Source: an uncultured Flavobacteriaceae bacterium (GTDB lineage Bacteria; Bacteroidota; Bacteroidia; Flavobacteriales; Flavobacteriaceae). From it: DNA of 64,000 nt. Positions 5,439 to 64,000 of the stretch are shown one piece after another. A model generated the notes under the pieces. The model did not search any database. It was given only the letters and a program-made list of their open reading frames with translations, and was not told where the DNA came from. Made by a program: the position numbers and the translations under genes. Where the stretch lies: the NCBI GenBank assembly GCA_943787365.1, contig CALSMD010000006.1:75984-139983 (forward strand), in the 5' to 3' direction. Numbering within the stretch: the stretch's first letter is position 1; each line of letters begins with the position of its first letter.

Positions 5439-6716
5439 ATGAATGCACCCTTAGCAGAACGCTTACGTCCAAAAAAACTGGCCGATTACATCAGTCAATC
5501 ACACCTTATTGGATCCAACGGAGCATTAACACAAGCATTAAAACAAGGATTAATTCCCTCCATGATTTTTTGGGGCCCTCCTGGCATCGGAAAAACCACC
5601 CTTGCCACCATCATTGCTACCGAGTCCGAACGCCCTTTCTATACCTTAAGCGCTATTAGTTCTGGTGTAAAAGACGTGCGTGAAGTCATTGAAAAAGCCA
5701 AAACTGGTGGTGGTTTATTTACGACCAAAAACCCTATTTTATTTATTGATGAAATTCATCGTTTTAGCAAATCACAACAAGATTCACTCTTGCAAGCCGT
5801 GGAAAAAGGATGGGTCACACTGATTGGAGCCACTACTGAAAATCCAAGTTTTGAAGTCATCTCCGCCCTCCTCTCGCGTTGTCAGGTTTATACCTTAAAA
5901 CCGTTTGACACCAGTGATTTAGAGGTGCTGCTAAAACGGGCTATAGAAACAGATGAACTCCTTTCAAAAAAGAAAATAAAACTCCTAGAAACCGAAGCCT
6001 TGCTGCGACTGTCAGGTGGCGATGCTCGGAAATTATTAAATATTTTTGAATTAATTGTCAATTCAGACAGTGCCACAAACGTAACCATTACAAATCAATT
6101 GGTGTTAGATAAGGTTCAAAACAGTACGGTTTTATATGACAAAACAGGCGATCAGCATTACGATATTATATCGGCCTTTATTAAATCCATTCGTGGGAGC
6201 GATCCAAATGGTGCCGTCTATTGGTTGGCACGGATGCTAGAAGGTGGCGAGGACGTGAAGTTTATTGCACGACGCATGCTTATCCTTGCGAGTGAAGATA
6301 TTGGAAACGCCAACCCAACGGCTTTGGTATTAGCCAATAGCACCTTTCAGTCGGTCGCAGCAATAGGCATGCCCGAAAGTCGGATTATCTTAAGCCAATG
6401 TGCGACCTATTTGGCCTGCTCGCCAAAGAGTAATGCAGCTTATGCGGCAATCAATCAAGCAATTGATGTTGTGAAAAACACAGGGAATCTTGCTGTACCC
6501 CTAGATATTCGGAACGCACCAACTAAATTGATGAAAGATTTAGGCTATGGCGAATCGTATAAATACGCTCATAATTACGACCTGAATTTTGTGGCTCAAG
6601 AATTTTTACCAGAAGGAATCGAAAACACACAGTTTTACAAACCTGGGAACAACACCCGTGAAAATGCCCAGCAAGAATTTTTGAAACAACGTTGGAAAGA
6701 CAAGTACAGTTCTTAG
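5439..6716 (+). CDS. rarA: Replication-associated recombination protein RarA (MgsA)
   Basis: 425-residue AAA+ ATPase related to clamp loaders, acting at stalled or gapped replication forks. Walker A is GPPGIGKTT (residues 46-54), Walker B is LFIDEIHRF (Asp104, Glu105), and sensor 1 lies in [13 protein letters not shown]. The C-terminal tetramerisation region ([20 protein letters not shown], then [10 protein letters not shown]) is complete, and the length is normal for the family. The start codon follows a -7 box by four bases. The last 4 bases overlap the end of the convergent gene at 6713. Confidence 0.95.
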
Positions 6717-7504
6717 CGTTGAATGTTCAAAGCTTCAATCGTAGTTTTTCCATTTTCAATAGATTCACGAACCCAACTTTGTCCGCGTTTATAAATAATT
6801 CCTTCCTCCCCATCAATAATATAAACATACTCAAACAATGTTGCGTGTACGGAGTATTTAATAGTTTTAGAACGACTGTCTATAAAATTGTAGCCCGTGT
6901 TGGTTTGCTGAATAATCAATCCCGAAGCCACCTCAACGACTGGAACTGATGGAACTTCAGCAACTGATGGAGCTTCTGGTTCTTCAGAAACAATTTCAGA
7001 TGTGGGTTCAATAGGTGTTACTTTTGGTGTTTTAGGCGGGGTTGGTGTAGGCAAAACAATCGTACGATCTGCCCCCACATAAGCATAATTAAATTCACTT
7101 AAAGTAAAAACATCTCGGAGTGCTTCATGATACGCTTTCTGATAATCCTTTAGTTTCGATTTTCCAATTTCGGAAGAAAAAACAACCGTATTTTTACAAT
7201 TGGTCAGCAGCAGTTGTAGTTTTGTTGTTAATAACCCTTTAATCTTAACCACATTTGCGTTGAGTAGTAAACAATTGTTTTGAGCTAAATCCATTGGGTA
7301 GTTATCCGATTTATTCAGCACTGTAAATCCATTCTTTTTTAACAAGAACTTGGTTAAAGAACTCAATTGATATTGATCGTTTGATTTTAAAAAATCAAAT
7401 TTATCTGGAACTGAAACGTATTTATAATCATTGATACTCAATTGAGCCCATAAACTCGTAGTGGTGCTCAATATTAAAAGAAAAACACAAATTTTAGTTT
7501 TCAT
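6713..7504 (-). CDS. Exported protein of unknown function with Pro-rich linker
   Basis: 263 residues with a signal peptide ending SLWAQ (about residue 21). Two parts are visible. Residues 22-150 form an alpha/beta domain (KYVSVPDKFDFLKSNDQYQL, then a KNGFTVLNKSD stretch). Residues about 150-190 are a Pro/Glu/Val linker rich in PTP and EEPEAPSV. A short C-terminal beta domain (residues 195-263) follows. It resembles conserved flavobacterial envelope proteins without assigned function. Its 5' end overlaps the upstream barrel gene by 11 bases, so the pair is probably translationally coupled and may act together at the outer membrane. Confidence 0.75.
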   Translation of the reverse strand: MKTKICVFLLILSTTTSLWAQLSINDYKYVSVPDKFDFLKSNDQYQLSSLTKFLLKKNGFTVLNKSDNYPMDLAQNNCLLLNANVVKIKGLLTTKLQLLLTNCKNTVVFSSEIGKSKLKDYQKAYHEALRDVFTLSEFNYAYVGADRTIVLPTPTPPKTPKVTPIEPTSEIVSEEPEAPSVAEVPSVPVVEVASGLIIQQTNTGYNFIDSRSKTIKYSVHATLFEYVYIIDGEEGIIYKRGQSWVRESIENGKTTIEALNIQR

Positions 7505-56547: not shown

Positions 56548-57012
56548 ATGAAAAAATTGTTTCCATTGTTAGCTCTACTAATCTTTGCTTGTAGTAGTGA
56601 TGATGACATCAATTTAACTGCCCAATTATTTCTACAGAAATATGATGGTGTAGTGTGGAACGAAGACCTGTATAATTCTAATCCTGATTATTCATACAAG
56701 ATAGTATTCACAAAAACTCCGCCGACCGTTACATTTAATGAAACTTACATGAATGACATGAATTGTTATGTTGTGCCAATTGGTTCTTCCTACACTGATG
56801 AAAATGGAACAATAACAACCTCAGTTGTAGAATCGACAGAAGACACTATCGTTTTGGACTTCGAGGAGGATTATATTGGAGAGATAGACTTGTACAGAAC
56901 AACCTTTTATGTTCAAAACAATGGAAATTCAATGGTAGTAGAAATCTCTGAAGGTGATGAGCCCGCAACAGAATATTACTCTAAAACAAACTTAAATAAA
57001 CCTTGCAATTAA
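56548..57012 (+). CDS. Small lipoprotein, first gene of the fibre locus
   Basis: 154 residues. Signal peptide with lipobox IFACSSDDD; the SDDD after the Cys is a typical outer-surface export signal for Bacteroidota lipoproteins. The mature part (TAQLFLQKYDGVVW..., two cysteines at about residues 73 and 153) has no recognised domain. It shares the transcript with genes at 57014, 57487 and onward with only 1-base gaps or overlaps. Confidence 0.75.
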   Translation: MKKLFPLLALLIFACSSDDDINLTAQLFLQKYDGVVWNEDLYNSNPDYSYKIVFTKTPPTVTFNETYMNDMNCYVVPIGSSYTDENGTITTSVVESTEDTIVLDFEEDYIGEIDLYRTTFYVQNNGNSMVVEISEGDEPATEYYSKTNLNKPCN

Positions 57013-57013
57013 T

Positions 57014-57490
57014 ATGAAATACACACTAACATTAATACTAAGTTTCTTTCTTTGGAATGCTTCTGCGCAGTTGCATCATCAGATGCTCTCCAGCCAAGGC
57101 AGTACTTCCAAAACCGAAAAAGGAATCATCGTAACGCAAACTGTTGGACAACAATCCGTAAACGGTAATTATACATCAAGAGGCTTTAATGTAGGACAAG
57201 GCTTTCAGCAAGCCAATTGGGCTAGGATTATTGTGGAGGGAATCACACCAGAGTTTGAGGTGTCGATGTATCCAAATCCGTTTAGCGGAATTGTAAATAT
57301 TCAACACAACTCAACGGAGGATATCAACATCAATGTCTTTGATCCTGCTGGTAAACTGGTATTTAAAAACTTATTAAAGGTCTCGGCACCCAGCCAGGCC
57401 ATCAATCTTCAAGAGTTACCCACAGGGATATATCTTGTACACTTACAGTCCAATCAACTTAATTATTTTACTAAACTCATCAAAAAATGA
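57014..57490 (+). CDS. Small exported protein with T9SS type A sorting domain
   Basis: 158 residues. Signal peptide to about residue 19 (NASAQ), then a short domain HHQMLSSQGSTSKTEKGIIV...TVGQQSVNGNYTSRGFNVGQGFQQA which is a common Bacteroidota surface-protein segment, followed by a T9SS sorting domain (SMYPNPFSGIVNIQ ... LPTGIYLVHLQSNQLNYFTKLIKK). It should be carried to the cell surface. It overlaps the next gene by 4 bases (ATGA). Confidence 0.82.
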   Translation: MKYTLTLILSFFLWNASAQLHHQMLSSQGSTSKTEKGIIVTQTVGQQSVNGNYTSRGFNVGQGFQQANWARIIVEGITPEFEVSMYPNPFSGIVNIQHNSTEDININVFDPAGKLVFKNLLKVSAPSQAINLQELPTGIYLVHLQSNQLNYFTKLIKK

Positions 57491-58101
57491 AACAACTATT
57501 ATCCATTACACTAATTGTTTTTGCGCTTAATTTTTCATCGGCCCAAGAGGTCTATTTGAATGTAGGACGCAACTTTACAACCTATGATTACACAAACTCT
57601 CAGGGAGAAGAAAACCCTAACATCGAATCCAGCAGTGGAGCTTCATACGAGGTGGGTTACATCTTCCCAATGGGCGATAAATTTGGAATTGCAGCTGGTT
57701 TTACCTTAGACCAATACAATGCAACTGGTGGCAACCTTGTCAACAATTACTCTTGGGACACCAATTATTTAGGGCTGCAAGGAATGGCTAGGTACACTGT
57801 ACTTGGTGCAGACATAGCGCCATTTGCGGTAATCCTTAAGGCAGGGGTCAATTTTAACCATATCATCAGTGGAGAGCAAAAGATCAACGGACAAACGTTT
57901 AAGCTTACTGGTGAGGATGAGTTTAAGGGATTATTCATCAAACCTGTCTTTGGGTTGGATGTACAGTACTTCCTTTTGGATGATATTGCTATTAGTATGG
58001 GTTATAACTTCTCCAAAAACTTTGGCCTAAGCAGTGGAGATCAAAAACTTAATTTTAACAACAATCAACTACAGTTTGGTATTATAATGTCATTAAACTA
58101 G
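57487..58101 (+). CDS. Outer-membrane beta-barrel protein
   Basis: 204 residues with a signal peptide (NFSSAQ, about residue 20). The body alternates polar and hydrophobic residues and ends with strand NNQLQFGIIMSLN, typical of small eight-stranded OmpW/OprG- or PorT-like barrels. It may anchor or export fibre components to the surface. Overlaps the upstream gene by 4 bases; downstream gene follows after 1 base. Confidence 0.8.
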   Translation: MKQLLSITLIVFALNFSSAQEVYLNVGRNFTTYDYTNSQGEENPNIESSSGASYEVGYIFPMGDKFGIAAGFTLDQYNATGGNLVNNYSWDTNYLGLQGMARYTVLGADIAPFAVILKAGVNFNHIISGEQKINGQTFKLTGEDEFKGLFIKPVFGLDVQYFLLDDIAISMGYNFSKNFGLSSGDQKLNFNNNQLQFGIIMSLN

Positions 58102-58102
58102 T

Positions 58103-58864
58103 ATGAAACGATTAACTTATTTATTAATTTTTGTAGCCAGCTTGGGCTATTCGCAGAGTAACTTAGTTTTTAATAGGGTTTTAAATTTTAAACTTACTTC
58201 TAGCCAAACTGCTACAGTTCCTGCAGGTAAAGTATGGAAGGTTGAAAACTTCACAAATCAAAGTGGAACTGTGGCGGACTATTTTTATCTTGACACTTCA
58301 GATGCTGATTATGGTTCACTCTCGATTACAAATGGATTTATCGATACTACCGAAGGAGGAGTTGTTTGGCTTAAGGAAGGGTCAGATATAAGAGGATACG
58401 CATCTAGTGGGACTTTATTTTCAATTCTAGAATTCGATGTAGTTCCTGTTTCAACTACTAGTACTAGCTCAGGAGGATTAAGTTCTGAAGGACTGGAATT
58501 CAATCAAGTAATTAATTATAGTAACAATGTTATAGTTGGTGGTTATGGAGAAATTATTGATGTTTTAGAAGTTCCACAAGGTAAAGTTTGGAAAATTACA
58601 AGAGTTACGATACTTGGTCGAAGTGGTGGAACTTCACCTGGAGTTCAGTATCGCCCTAATGATGTAGACCAAATTAGTGTTGAATTGGGAGGTATAAATT
58701 TATTTTATAGACCTAATAATAGTGGCTATTCAAATTCAAGTTTTGAGAATTATCCCGTTTGGATAAATTCTGGCACAAAAGATTTAGTAGTTGGGCAGTA
58801 TGCTGATGGTTCAAGTTCATTTAGAATTACCTTGTCAGCAATAGAATATAACATACCTCAATAA
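58103..58864 (+). CDS. Exported two-module 'VPxGKVWK' protein, copy 1
   Basis: 253 residues, signal peptide to about 18 (GYSQS). The rest consists of two similar modules. Module A (about 20-120) holds [12 protein letters not shown] and ends ILEFDVVP; module B (about 128-253) starts [10 protein letters not shown], holds VPQGKVWKI and ends AIEYNIPQ. Each module begins with a F-N-x-V strand, contains VPxGKVWK and ends [LI]E[FY][DN]xP. No family known to me; probably a beta-sandwich. Paralogue at 60131-60871. The collagen-like gene begins two bases after its stop. Confidence 0.75.
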
Positions 58865-58866
58865 TC

Positions 58867-60126
58867 ATGAAAAAAATACTATACACTATATTATTATTCA
58901 GCTCCCTTGCTTTCTCTCAAAGCAGTGGAATTACATACCAGGCTGTTATTTATAATCCTAATGGAGAGGAGCTTCCAGGTGTCGACAACCCCTATGCACC
59001 TCTTGTAAACCAAGACATTTGTCTGCAGTTCGGTATTGTAGATGCTGATGGGAACCTAGAATACCAGGAGCAAGTGCAGGTTACTACTGATGCATTCGGG
59101 ATGGTCAATCTTTTAATAGGAACTAATACGCAAACTGGAGGGTATGCCTCTGATTTTGTAGGTGTTCAATGGACAGCTGATGCAAAGTTTTTAGTCGTGG
59201 ACCTTGACATTAAAGGTGCCTGTTCTGACTTTGAAGAGCTTTCTAATCAACCGTTTACTTATGTGCCGTTTGCTTATTACTCCCCTGCATCCGATGTACC
59301 TGGACCAGAAGGCCCACAGGGCCCTCCAGGACCAGCAGGAGTACAAGGACCTCAAGGTGAACCAGGACCAGCTGGAGCAGATGGTCAAGACGGAGCAGTT
59401 GGAGCAATAGGGCCCACTGGCCAACAAGGACCACAAGGCCCCCAAGGTATTGCAGGTGTTGACGGTCAAGACGGAGCTATTGGAGCCACAGGACCGCAAG
59501 GACTAGCAGGACCTCAGGGACCTCAGGGACCACAAGGTATTCAAGGACCAGCTGGAGCTAACGGGCAAGACGGTGCAGTTGGAGCTACAGGACCGCAAGG
59601 ACTAGCAGGATCTCAGGGACCACAAGGTATTCAAGGACCAGCTGGAGCTGACGGGCAAGACGGTGCAGTTGGAGCTACAGGACCAAGCGGACCCGCAGGA
59701 CCTGCAGGGCCTCAAGGTGTTGCTGGTGCAGATGGACAAGACGGTATGTTAACTGATGGGACTAATGTTGGTGATACGGCATATTGGGATGGAACTGAGT
59801 GGGTTGTGAGCAGCAACCATTTATATAATGACGGCAGTAATGTGATGATTGGAACAGATCAGGTGGACAACTCTTCTGCGCTTACAGTGGCTGCATCGGA
59901 CAAAGGAATTCTGATACCAAAGCTTACACAAGCTCAAAGGGATGCTATAGCCAGTCCTTCAACAGCACTACTTATATTTCAGACGGATCAAACTCCAGGA
60001 TTCTATTACTTTGATGGCGTAGAATGGGTAGGGCTTATCAATACAAACTCAACAACAAATAATAACAGCGGTAGTAGCGGAGGAAACCAAAGCGACACCC
60101 TAATATATACTGTAGATGGATTTTAA
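58867..60126 (+). CDS. Collagen-like fibre protein, copy 1
   Basis: 419 residues. Signal peptide (to about residue 17, LAFSQ); a constant head domain (about 19-143, starting [18 protein letters not shown], and closing [10 protein letters not shown]); a Gly-X-Y stalk of about 150 residues rich in GPQG, GATG and GADGQDG; and a C-terminal region with [14 protein letters not shown], then [24 protein letters not shown], a motif common in tail-fibre-like Bacteroidota proteins. The stalk should form a collagen-like triple helix. The gene starts two bases after the preceding module gene. Confidence 0.85.
59299..59745 (+). repeat. Gly-X-Y encoding repeat, copy 1
   Basis: About 149 codons with Gly at nearly every third position. 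Related units of 27-60 bases (for example ggagctacaggaccgcaagg) recur three times or more, giving long near-identical stretches that could recombine with each other and with the matching stretches at 61306 and 63356. Confidence 0.85.
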
Positions 60127-60130
60127 GATT

Positions 60131-60871
60131 ATGAAAAAAATAGTTTTTGGATTATTAATGACAATGGGTATGCTAAATGCCCAAAACAATTTAGTTTTTA
60201 ATCAGGTATTAATTTTAGATTTCACAAATAACGGCGCTGAACCATATATTGTACCAGAAGGGAAAGTATGGAAAGTAGAATCAGCAACATTAGGTTCAAC
60301 ATTTAAAGTTGATGGTAATACTTGGACTATGGGGGATCTAGGATCATATAGAATGGGGCCTATTTGGATCCCAGAAAATTCTGCATTAAGTGGAGGCTCA
60401 TCAGACGCTGATTTTATAAGTGTTTTAGAATTTGATGTTGTCCCAACATCAACAGGGATAGGTTCAGGTACTGGTGGAGGTGGTGTAAGTAGTGACGGGC
60501 TAGTGTTTTCTGAAGTAATTAATCAATTTATCCCAACTTCAAGTGTTACAGGTGCATTTGGAACAGTAGCTGGGTCCTTTATTGTGCCCGAAGGAAAGAT
60601 ATGGAAGATACATAAAATGACTCATAACAAAATTTCCTCTTCTACTGGAGGCTTTATTTCATTAAATGGAAGTTTATATGTTTCAATGGATGGAATTCCT
60701 ATATATGGGATTAGCACGATTAATAATATAATTTCTAATACTACAGCTAATACCATTCTTACACCAGGTACTTATGAATTAAAATGGTATCAAGGATCAG
60801 GTGCTGGTGGCCCTTTTTATAGTGGCACAATAACTCATTTAGTAGCAATAGAATATAATATACCTCAATAA
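60131..60871 (+). CDS. Exported two-module 'VPxGKVWK' protein, copy 2
   Basis: About 246 residues (start at ATG 60131, [14 protein letters not shown]..., after the upstream stop; a frame extending to 60116 would overlap the fibre gene). Signal peptide to about residue 17. Two modules as in 58103-58864: module A has [12 protein letters not shown] and ends VLEFDVVP; module B has [12 protein letters not shown] and ends AIEYNIPQ. A Gly/Ser-rich linker ([10 protein letters not shown]) joins the halves. The collagen-like gene follows after two bases, the same order and spacing as in the first pair. Confidence 0.78.
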
Positions 60872-60873
60872 TT

Positions 60874-62403
60874 ATGAAAAAAATACTATACACTTTATTA
60901 ATATTTAGTTCCATAGCTTTCTCACAAAGCAGTGGAATTACATATCAAGCTGTTATTTATAATCCTAATGGTGAGGAACTCCCTGGCGTAGACAATCCTT
61001 ATGCACCTCTTGTAAACCAAGACATTTGTCTGCAGTTTGGCATTGTCGATGCTGATGGGAACTTGGAATACCAAGAGCAAGTTCAGGTAACAACTGATCC
61101 TTTTGGCATGGTAAATTTACTCATAGGAACAAACAATCAAACAGACGGATATGCCTCTGATTTTGGAGGTGTTCAGTGGACAGCTGACGCTAAATTTTTA
61201 GTGGTTGACCTAGATATAAAAGGGACTTGTACTGACTTTGAAGAATTATCCAACCAACCGTTTACTTATGTGCCATTCGCATACTACTCTCCAGCATCCG
61301 ATGTACCAGGACCAGAAGGCCCACAAGGCCCTCCAGGACCTGCAGGTATACAAGGACCTCAAGGCGAAACAGGACCAGCTGGAGCCGATGGTCAAGACGG
61401 AGCGGTTGGTGCTACAGGACCCACTGGCCCACAAGGACCAGCAGGACCTCAGGGACCTCAGGGTATCCAAGGACCCGCAGGAGCAGATGGTGACACAGCT
61501 ATCAAGACGCTTATCAATACAACTGATGAAGCTCCTGGAACAAATTGTGCAAATGGAGGTATTAAAATTGAAGTCGGTGATGATACTAATGGTGATGGAA
61601 TATTGGACGCAACCGAGATAGATGACTCTCTAACTCGTTATGTATGTAATGGTGATGATGGACAAGACGGCGCTGATGGCGTTGGAGGTGGTGGGTCACC
61701 ATATTTTTTCACAAGTATTGAAGATGTTGAGACTTATACTATTTTAACAAGCTGCGAAACAGATGATAATAATCCTTACGGATATATTGCACCTATTGGA
61801 AGTGGATGGACAACAAATGCTGCAATCGGCTTTAAGTCTTGTTATCGCAGCCCTAATCAAAGATGCTGGGATGGTTGTGGTTCTCAAGGAACATGGCCCA
61901 ACTGTCCTGAAATATGCAGAATTGATTTAAGTAGTCCAATTCCAAGTCAATTAGAACATATTTATGAGAACATTAATGCAAGGAAACTAGAAATCATTCC
62001 GCCAAGAGGATATCAATGCTTTGAAACAACTATTAAAGTAGAATTTTATGACGTTGCGGGCCAATTGATACCTAGTTTTGCAGAACATTGCTATGTAACA
62101 TCATCTTCAAGTTATTTACAAACAGAGTATTTTTCAGCATCAAATTCTCAAATTTTTAATCTCAATTTGATTAACCCATATAACTCTAACCACTTGATGA
62201 ATAAGCTGGTCTTTAATTTGCCAAACAACGCAACAAACTTGAAAATTACATTTGAAGCATTAGAGCCTGATAGTTTTTTAGGTTGCTCAGAAAGTTCTTA
62301 CATTAATGTTGTTCCAGCTTCATACAATAATGGTTTTGGAGGTACACCCAGCTATAATTACTTGCATAGAAATATTGGTTATCAAGTTACACGATGGGAG
62401 TAA
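60874..62403 (+). CDS. Collagen-like fibre protein, copy 2, with large Cys-rich tail
   Basis: 509 residues. Signal peptide and head domain nearly identical to the copy at 58867 (about 17-143), then a shorter Gly-X-Y stalk (about 145-207), a Ca-binding-like segment ([20 protein letters not shown], ending [12 protein letters not shown]) that resembles a domain known in secreted proteins, and a unique C-terminal domain of about 240 residues with ten or more Cys (for example [17 protein letters not shown]). The tail has no homologue I recognise; it is probably the binding or enzymatic tip. Confidence 0.83.
61306..61492 (+). repeat. Gly-X-Y encoding repeat, copy 2
   Basis: About 62 codons of Gly-X-Y, much shorter than in copies 1 and 3 but starting with the same bases (ccaggaccagaaggcccaca), so length varies between paralogues. 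Confidence 0.85.
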
Positions 62404-62547
62404 AATAAAATTAATTATGTATTAGTTATTTTAGTACGAACACGCCATCCTTGAGAAAAGTGAATATTGAAAATAAAACAATAGCTGTGGTTATTAAAGA
62501 AAATGGTAATACTCACATCAAAATAAAGCAATTTTGAATATAAACCA

Positions 62548-62919
62548 ATGAAAGAAGAAATATTACGCTACTTGACTTTTGATCAACAGTTTATTAAAAA
62601 AATGAACTCTTCAACTTATTTAAAGTCAAAGGATGAGCTATACAGCATCTTAAATTGGTGGAACAAACTTTCTAAGTCTGAAACTATTGGAGATTTGGGT
62701 CAAATGAATGGCAATACCCCTTTAATCATTATTAAATTAGGTAGTAGTTCGTACTACATCAATGCAGACACTAACAGAGCAGGTGTTGAAGCATTCCTAA
62801 AAAACAAAACAAATCCATGGAACTTAATAAGTAACAGGGATGCAAAGAAAAATAAAATTACAAACGACTCTAACCATGATCCAATTGAAGGGTTTTACAT
62901 GTATAAAAAATTGAATTAA
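62548..62919 (+). CDS. Small cytoplasmic protein inside the fibre locus
   Basis: 123 residues without a signal peptide or membrane helix, unlike every other gene in this locus. Contains [22 protein letters not shown] and [13 protein letters not shown]; no known family. Could be an immunity-type or regulatory protein, but that is guesswork. One base separates its stop from the next collagen-like gene. The 144-base gap before it holds only a weak 28-codon frame (TTG at 62451 to TGA at 62537) that I do not call. Confidence 0.55.
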
Positions 62920-62920
62920 T

Positions 62921-64000
62921 ATGGTCAAAAACATACTATACACTTTATTTCTATTTGGTTCACTAGCTTTTGCACAAAGCAGTGGAATCACTTATCAAGC
63001 GGTTATTTATAATCCAGCAGGCGAAGAGCTTCCTGGCGTAGACAATCCATATGCACCACTAACTAACCAAGACGTATGCTTACAGTTTGGTATTGTAGAT
63101 TCAGATGGCAACCTAGAATACCAAGAGCAAGTGCAGGTGACTACCGATCCTTTCGGTATGGTGAACCTGTTAATTGGCACCAACACACAAACAGGTGGTT
63201 ATGCTGCTGATTTCGCTAACGTACAATGGACAGCTGATGCCAAGTTCTTAGTCGTGGATCTTGATATTAAAGGTACTTGTAATGATTTTGAAGAATTGTC
63301 TAATCAACCGTTTACCTATGTACCGTTCGCATACTACTCCCCTGCATCCGATATACCGGGACCAGAAGGCCCTCCAGGACCAGCAGGTGCACAAGGACCT
63401 CAGGGCGAACCAGGACCCGCAGGAGCTGATGGACAAGACGGCGCAGTTGGAGCTACAGGACCAAGTGGACCAGCAGGGCCCGCAGGCCCACAAGGTATTG
63501 CTGGTGCAGATGGACAAGACGGAGCGGTTGGCGCAACAGGACCACAAGGTCCCCAGGGTGTAGCAGGGACAGATGGTATAGACGGTCAAGACGGTGCTAC
63601 AGGACCCGCAGGACCTCAAGGGATTGCTGGTGCAGATGGACAAGATGGCAATAACGGACAATCCGCATATGAAATATGGCTCGATCTAGGAAATACTGGG
63701 ACAGAACAAGATTTTATTGATTCATTAGTTGGGCCTGAGGGACCTCAGGGAGCTGATGGGTCGAATTCGACTTCATCAAATGGAACAGATCTAAATAACA
63801 TTGAGGGGGGCTTAAAGTTTAAAAGAATAGAGACCTACACAGAGTTCGATATTACAGTGCCTAGTGGTGAACTTTATTTACTCAAGTCAATTTACAGAGT
63901 TTCTTCAAACTCTAATAATCCAGCTTTTCGTGTTGACATTAACGGAAATTCTTTATTGCATTCAGCAAAATATGATAAATTCAATGGTAACACATCATCT
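62921..64000 (+). CDS. Collagen-like fibre protein, copy 3 (runs off the window)
   Basis: 360 codons are visible, with no stop before the window ends. Begins [20 protein letters not shown], then the same head domain as copies 1 and 2 ([18 protein letters not shown]). The stalk is broken into two blocks, and the segment [20 protein letters not shown], known from other Bacteroidota fibre proteins, separates them. After the second block the sequence [28 protein letters not shown] begins what looks like one of the VPxGKVWK modules fused to the fibre. The rest of the tail lies outside the window. Confidence 0.85.
63356..63661 (+). repeat. Gly-X-Y encoding repeat, copy 3
   Basis: About 102 codons of Gly-X-Y with GADGQDG and GPQG motifs shared with copies 1 and 2; a short second Gly block ([10 protein letters not shown]) follows at about 63734-63763 after a non-repetitive segment. 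Confidence 0.85.

Follow-up and report, generated by a model that had tools for sequence, protein, structure and literature searches.

Collagen-like fibres with a distantly MAT-related head and putative exchangeable tip proteins in an uncultured Flavobacteriaceae bacterium

In the long tail fibre of T-even phages, gp37 bears a separate tip protein, gp38. Among bacterial fibres, the MAT fibre of Bdellovibrio bacteriovorus is described as having a signal peptide, a conserved head of ~130 amino acids, a stalk and a variable C-terminal tip, and MAT fibres come in S74 and non-S74 forms (PMC10769870). The Legionella protein Lcl consists of an N-terminal region, a collagen stalk and an adhesive C-terminal domain (PMC11162425). 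The window analyzed here, i.e., the whole stretch of 64,000 nucleotides from an uncultured Flavobacteriaceae bacterium (contig CALSMD010000006.1, positions 75,984 to 139,983), harbors near its end collagen-like fibre genes (F1–F3) together with genes of two-domain secreted proteins (M1 and M2). The original prediction was aware of no described system with this gene pairing, which proved incomplete, as the fibre head is distantly related to that of the Bdellovibrio MAT fibre.

Comparison of the heads of F1–F3 and of F4, a fourth fibre just outside the window, with the NCBIfam model Bdello_MAT_N (NF053851) gave weak matches with E values of 0.0004 to 0.019 (F1 head, 0.0038). The model was matched at E ≤ 0.01 by 24 of 25 aligned heads, three of them from the window, with a best value of 4.1e-12; no head of the bacterium's own genome exceeded the curated cut-off of 60 bits, the best reaching 30.6 bits, and the heads are hence regarded as relatives and not filed as MAT members. 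A scan of 14 control genomes with this model also gave a weak match in one, an archaeon. The relationship to the Bdellovibrio MAT head is thus a distant one at the profile level, and the fibres are not assigned to MAT proper. As in MAT fibres, the homologous head comes after a signal peptide and is followed by a stalk and a variable tip, and chimeric tips are carried on a shared head, the heads being 89–98% identical and the tails unrelated (PMC10769870). All three array-side fibres in which Peptidase_S74 was sought contain it, similar to the S74 forms (PMC10769870). In contrast to MAT, the stalk is collagen-like here, the word "collagen" being absent from the main text of the MAT report, and the putative tips are in part encoded by genes of their own, the fibre bearing a C-terminal peptide (PMC10769870). 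By analogy, these fibres probably work like MAT fibres. The proposed tip resembles that of T-even gp37/gp38 in being a separate receptor-binding protein (PMC12892980), but differs in that no sequence relation was found, the proteins are bacterial and secreted, and there are many tip genes per fibre. F3 shares with Lcl a collagen stalk and a weak Lcl_C match in its tail (15.6 bits, below the cut-off of 34.9), but its N-terminal region is different, and no M protein or docking peptide is mentioned for Lcl in the available text of that source (PMC11162425). In a genome of the same order (G209, 1.9 Mb), 32 MAT-like head matches and no M match were observed.

Organization of the fibre cluster

The cluster consists of mostly tightly packed plus-strand genes starting at 56548, in the order small secreted protein, Por_Secre_tail protein, outer-membrane beta-barrel-like protein, M1, F1, M2, F2, a 123-aa ORF and F3. 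The beta-barrel-like protein (57487..58101) lies directly upstream of M1 (58103..58864), a secreted protein with two tandem M domains (aa 18–115 and 129–252). M1 precedes F1 (58867..60126), which comprises a MAT-like head (~aa 19–143), a collagen-like stalk (aa 146–295) and a tail ending in the peptide TLIYTVDGF (60097..60123), conserved in carriers adjoining M arrays; F1 is the peptide-bearing fibre of the cluster. The two-domain protein M2 (60131..60871; longest ORF start at 60116) directly follows F1. F2 (60874..62403) combines the same head as F1 with a short collagen stalk and DUF7151; its tail is unrelated and devoid of the peptide. The 123-aa ORF (62548..62919) showed no family match in Pfam and NCBIfam scans. 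F3 begins at 62921 with a head, collagen and its own tail, and continues past the window end at 64000; the full-length gene codes for 710 aa (L003:5905-8037). Outside the window lies the gene of F4 (585 aa), and behind it that of a PKD protein of 782 aa that bears a T9SS type B sorting domain. F3 and F4 are not paired with any M gene.

The predicted arrangement, an M gene followed by a collagen-like fibre gene twice at the same 2-base gap (M1–F1 and M2–F2) with a third fibre thereafter, agreed with these coordinates. The gap itself was discarded as a special mark, most neighbours here being 1–4 bases apart or overlapping. The prediction of a near-constant head with differing stalk lengths and tails was also borne out. 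The head of ~125 aa in F2, F3 and F4 is 94, 89 and 98% identical to that of F1, respectively, the collagen runs (Pfam Collagen) differ in length, and comparison of the four tails revealed no meaningful similarity (best E 0.05). The heads of F1 and F4 share an identical run of 389 nt, a sign of recent duplication or conversion at the sequence level; their tails are unrelated. A BLAST-type search of the own genome with M1 retrieved only M1 and M2. The head was found at seven places, four in the cluster and three distant, and a later head profile search added a weak eighth inside a very large frame. Matches of the fibres to PHROGs fell mostly within or across the collagen repeats.

The M domain family

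Each M protein of the window consists of two copies of one domain, with a Ser/Gly/Thr-rich linker between the two full domains. The halves of M1 match each other (E 4e-4), and an M profile in which the M genes of the window are included matched M1 at E 7e-22 and 8e-20 and M2 at E 2.5e-19 and 2e-14. The conserved core reads NLQFNQV...VPAGKVWK...WLPAG...IEF, with strong conservation at both ends of the domain and a middle segment of variable length. Searches of Pfam, NCBIfam, PHROGs and PDB sequences yielded no convincing relative, the scattered matches being at chance level; in PHROGs, 82 M members gave two single-member matches (E 0.0015 and 0.0032). A phage origin of M was rejected, as none of five pattern matches in viral contigs was a relative. 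In the open-licence PMC literature, as far as its available text extends, no paper was recognized as describing M arrays or the peptide TLIYTxDGF.

A motif-based scan of genome contigs, with M1 and M2 as basis, located 58 M loci outside the own genome; almost all of the records are titled Bacteroidota, and one is titled only uncultured bacterium. Two or more tandem M genes, up to 18, were present in 43 of these loci, seven of which hold just two (some being cut), and the other 15 carry a single M gene. Two loci (L068 and L075) overlap on one contig, so that the 58 loci represent 57 places and the 43 array loci 42; L035 matches a part of L027 almost exactly. The maps of the 58 loci show 344 M genes, including 339 complete ORFs with a median of 131 aa, and a 4-base overlap was observed in 138 of 271 neighbouring same-strand M pairs. 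By a crude test, 257 of the 339 complete M ORFs possess a hydrophobic leader vs 217 of 450 other genes, and secretion is therefore likely for the family as a whole and putative for the individual member. At E ≤ 1e-6, M was found in 22 of 395 Bacteroidia genomes (own included) under 13 family labels. It was rare close to home, with 2 of 199 genomes in the own family (two-row profile) and 1 of 395 genomes drawn in the own order (larger profile).

The M core also occurs in other protein contexts. One protein of L106, from the same genome (G572) as the array L027, has the architecture head-collagen-M-M (E 1e-18), L122 harbors a head-M fusion (E 3e-6), and L077 a weaker head-M case (6603-7478; E 1e-4). 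F3 was rejected as a clear cis carrier of M because the M-like stretch in its tail is non-significant (E 0.017). Split, permuted cores, with the two halves of M in reverse order, occur in L070, L076, L195 and L203; eight such ORFs were flagged, one incomplete, and L201 looks permuted too but was not flagged. In the complete permuted ORFs, a further body follows, with Gly_rich_2 found in the L203 protein scanned. These permuted forms with other bodies suggest, by their sequence, that the conserved core may serve as a constant base and the middle segment as a variable face. Several arrays are followed by a protein of 100–113 aa that is M-like by eye and lacks the N-terminal motif of M (L022:8736-9035, L041:9372-9683, L028:9176-9514, L044:8707-9012 and L045:8732-9052); the two scanned showed no Pfam match.

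Gene order and the C-terminal peptide

Among the 43 multi-M loci, a head/collagen gene was directly adjacent to M in 28 and within five genes in 2; 10 others showed no fibre gene but reached the end of the fetched locus, and 3 had none (L043, L069 and L070). The 15 single-M loci presented a different picture, with a fibre adjacent in 1, none in 10 and none up to a nearby locus end in 4. The proposed unit of an M gene and a fibre gene thus stood in so far as the genes travel together in arrays, and the pairing recurs among the loci of other genomes; 14 of the 15 single-M loci had no fibre in view. Nine of these (L046, L047, L049–L052, L054, L061 and L066) apparently share one conserved neighbourhood, and their M genes perhaps have a different role. 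The proposed order did not stand. For 57 same-strand runs of at least two M genes, the direct upstream neighbour was a fibre or peptide carrier on the same strand (26 runs) or in divergent orientation (15), some other gene (9) or the locus end (7); the direct downstream neighbour was a fibre for 1 run, some other gene for 47 and the end for 9. The expectation that M nearly always precedes a collagen-like gene was therefore not supported, and the order that is conserved places the fibre before M rather than after it. Owing to this order in the relatives, F1 and M2 are more likely the functional pair in the window. Some carriers adjoining arrays have neither head nor collagen, and the collagen stalk is accordingly not essential. 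A PKD protein resembling that after F4 (~35–43% identity) follows the arrays in L023, L026, L027 and L041. Arrays of close relatives consist mostly of orthologous M genes in the same order, but individual genes may be gained, missing or exchanged (best match 40–49%) next to clear orthologues; in L027 vs L023 and L026, this concerns the M gene nearest the carrier.

A regular expression for the peptide, written after seeing these loci, was applied to the 840 ORFs on the maps of 60 loci that have a complete 3' end; 28 matched, F1 included, and 21 of these 28 have the head. A same-strand M gene lies directly after 27 of the 28; in the exception, L059, an antisense ORF intervenes. Heads devoid of the peptide in the same loci were directly followed by M in 0 of 14 cases. 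The codons of the peptide vary where the residues are kept (Y in 28/28, encoded by TAT in 16 and TAC in 12), for which reason a DNA-level element was rejected. Headless peptide carriers were seen in L053, L065, L068 (complete in L185), L043, L069 and L070. The last was added by a relaxed expression (29 of 840 ORFs), and thereby all three loci without a fibre neighbour have a headless peptide carrier.

In the controls, regions were picked from match lists and represent mostly higher-scoring heads away from arrays, not a random draw. The peptide was found on 0 of 45 complete heads (3 from the own genome) in 40 of 42 regions elsewhere in M-bearing genomes, and on 0 of 37 heads in 37 of 40 regions of 13 genomes without M, in which the M profile, which does find the M genes of the window, gave no match at E ≤ 0.001. 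In the first control, M lay close behind a head two genes on in L100 and L103, L122 1-810 was directly followed by the head-M fusion, and cis copies of M are present in L106 and L122. Fisher's test of 21/0 vs 0/96 gave 1e-23, but related loci were treated as independent, the expression was made on the same loci, and 14 of the 96 heads had been sorted by the peptide itself; a fair comparison is that with the 82 controls.

A peptide carrier was visible in 27 of the 43 array loci. The remaining 16 comprise 13 that are cut by a contig end, L064 and L075, which stop at the limit of the fetched flank, and L076, an uncut array without the peptide. Extended stretches of L064 and L075 do show it (L186 and L185, respectively; L075 is the same place as L068). 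Among 20 regions obtained later, L184–L186 repeat earlier places; in the 17 others, the expression matched in L188 and L202 (the M match of L202 coming from the Bacteroidia profile survey), and variants missed by it were read by eye in the carriers of L187, L190 and L203. No peptide carrier was found in the small arrays L197–L200 (L200 starts at a contig end), the single-M loci L189, L191, L192 and L196, or the permuted-type L195 and L201; L193 and L194 start at contig ends. In L100 (2392-3294), L103 (1884-2828) and L076 (6109-7020), related proteins of 301–315 aa, presumably SIR2-like, sit between a peptide-less fibre and an M gene.

Candidate docking of M proteins and alternative readings

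As facts of sequence, the association of M with fibre genes and the link between peptide and M are strong. They are best accommodated, with somewhat better than even confidence, by a model in which the cluster encodes MAT-like chimeric surface fibres, each with a head domain, a collagen stalk and a variable tail, some tips being separate, exchangeable secreted proteins docked via a C-terminal peptide. One fibre, here F1, would end in a linker and the conserved TLIYTxDGF, on which M proteins would dock through their conserved core, and the length-variable middle segment would be displayed as a binding surface. In the relatives, a whole choice of tips would be provided simultaneously by translationally coupled arrays; in the window, this role would fall to the two-domain M1 and M2, with F2–F4 carrying other tails in cis. 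Physical docking, trimer formation, surface location and ligand binding are all predicted from sequence. The model is favoured by the gene association and order, the peptide–M linkage with its controls, the cis fusions and permuted cores, the head homology, the turnover of single M genes and the identical head stretch of F1 and F4. Against it speak the single-M loci with no fibre in view, the loci without a peptide carrier (among them the uncut array L076), the peptide-less control heads with M close behind, the position of M1 ahead of the peptide-bearing fibre, the peptide variants missed by the expression, the heads' scores below the MAT cut-off and the non-significant M match of F3. The stalk-and-exchangeable-tip system of the original prediction fits this model.

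It is also conceivable, though unlikely, that each M protein is a secreted binder in its own right, co-transcribed with the fibre, the peptide being an export or sorting signal for another machine. M genes do occur alone, without a peptide carrier, and Pfam and NCBIfam scans found no T9SS C-terminal domain in M1, M2 or F1, leaving the route to the surface unexplained. However, none of the control heads carries the peptide, although they too need export and show signal peptides on visual inspection, and cis fusions join M to fibres of this same type. A mixed filament polymerized from M proteins, with the peptide-bearing fibre protein as its base or first subunit, is improbable. The long tandem arrays, the frequent 4-base overlaps and the strong conservation of both M ends would suit such a filament, but some array loci hold two M genes alone, M cores also end fibres or join other bodies, and in M1 and M2, a Ser/Gly/Thr-rich linker separates the two domains. 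An accidental pairing is very improbable in spite of the rarity of M in the own family and order, as the same association recurs in many loci and, from 114 head matches in ~69 Mb (24 whole genomes), chance adjacency is estimated at <1%.

Returning to the docked-tip model, a broader proposal may be put forward tentatively, at somewhat less than even confidence, viz., a previously undescribed plug-and-socket display of Bacteroidota. In this proposal, the peptide, on diverse carriers with or without a MAT-type head and collagen stalk, would be the common socket for M, a new domain family, the variable segment of M would be the binding face, and one fibre type could present many co-expressed tips. 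M constitutes a domain family named by none of the libraries searched. Through the head homology, fibres first met in a predator are connected with a wide range of Bacteroidota from the environment, and the nine-residue peptide offers a directly testable candidate dock for exchangeable tips.
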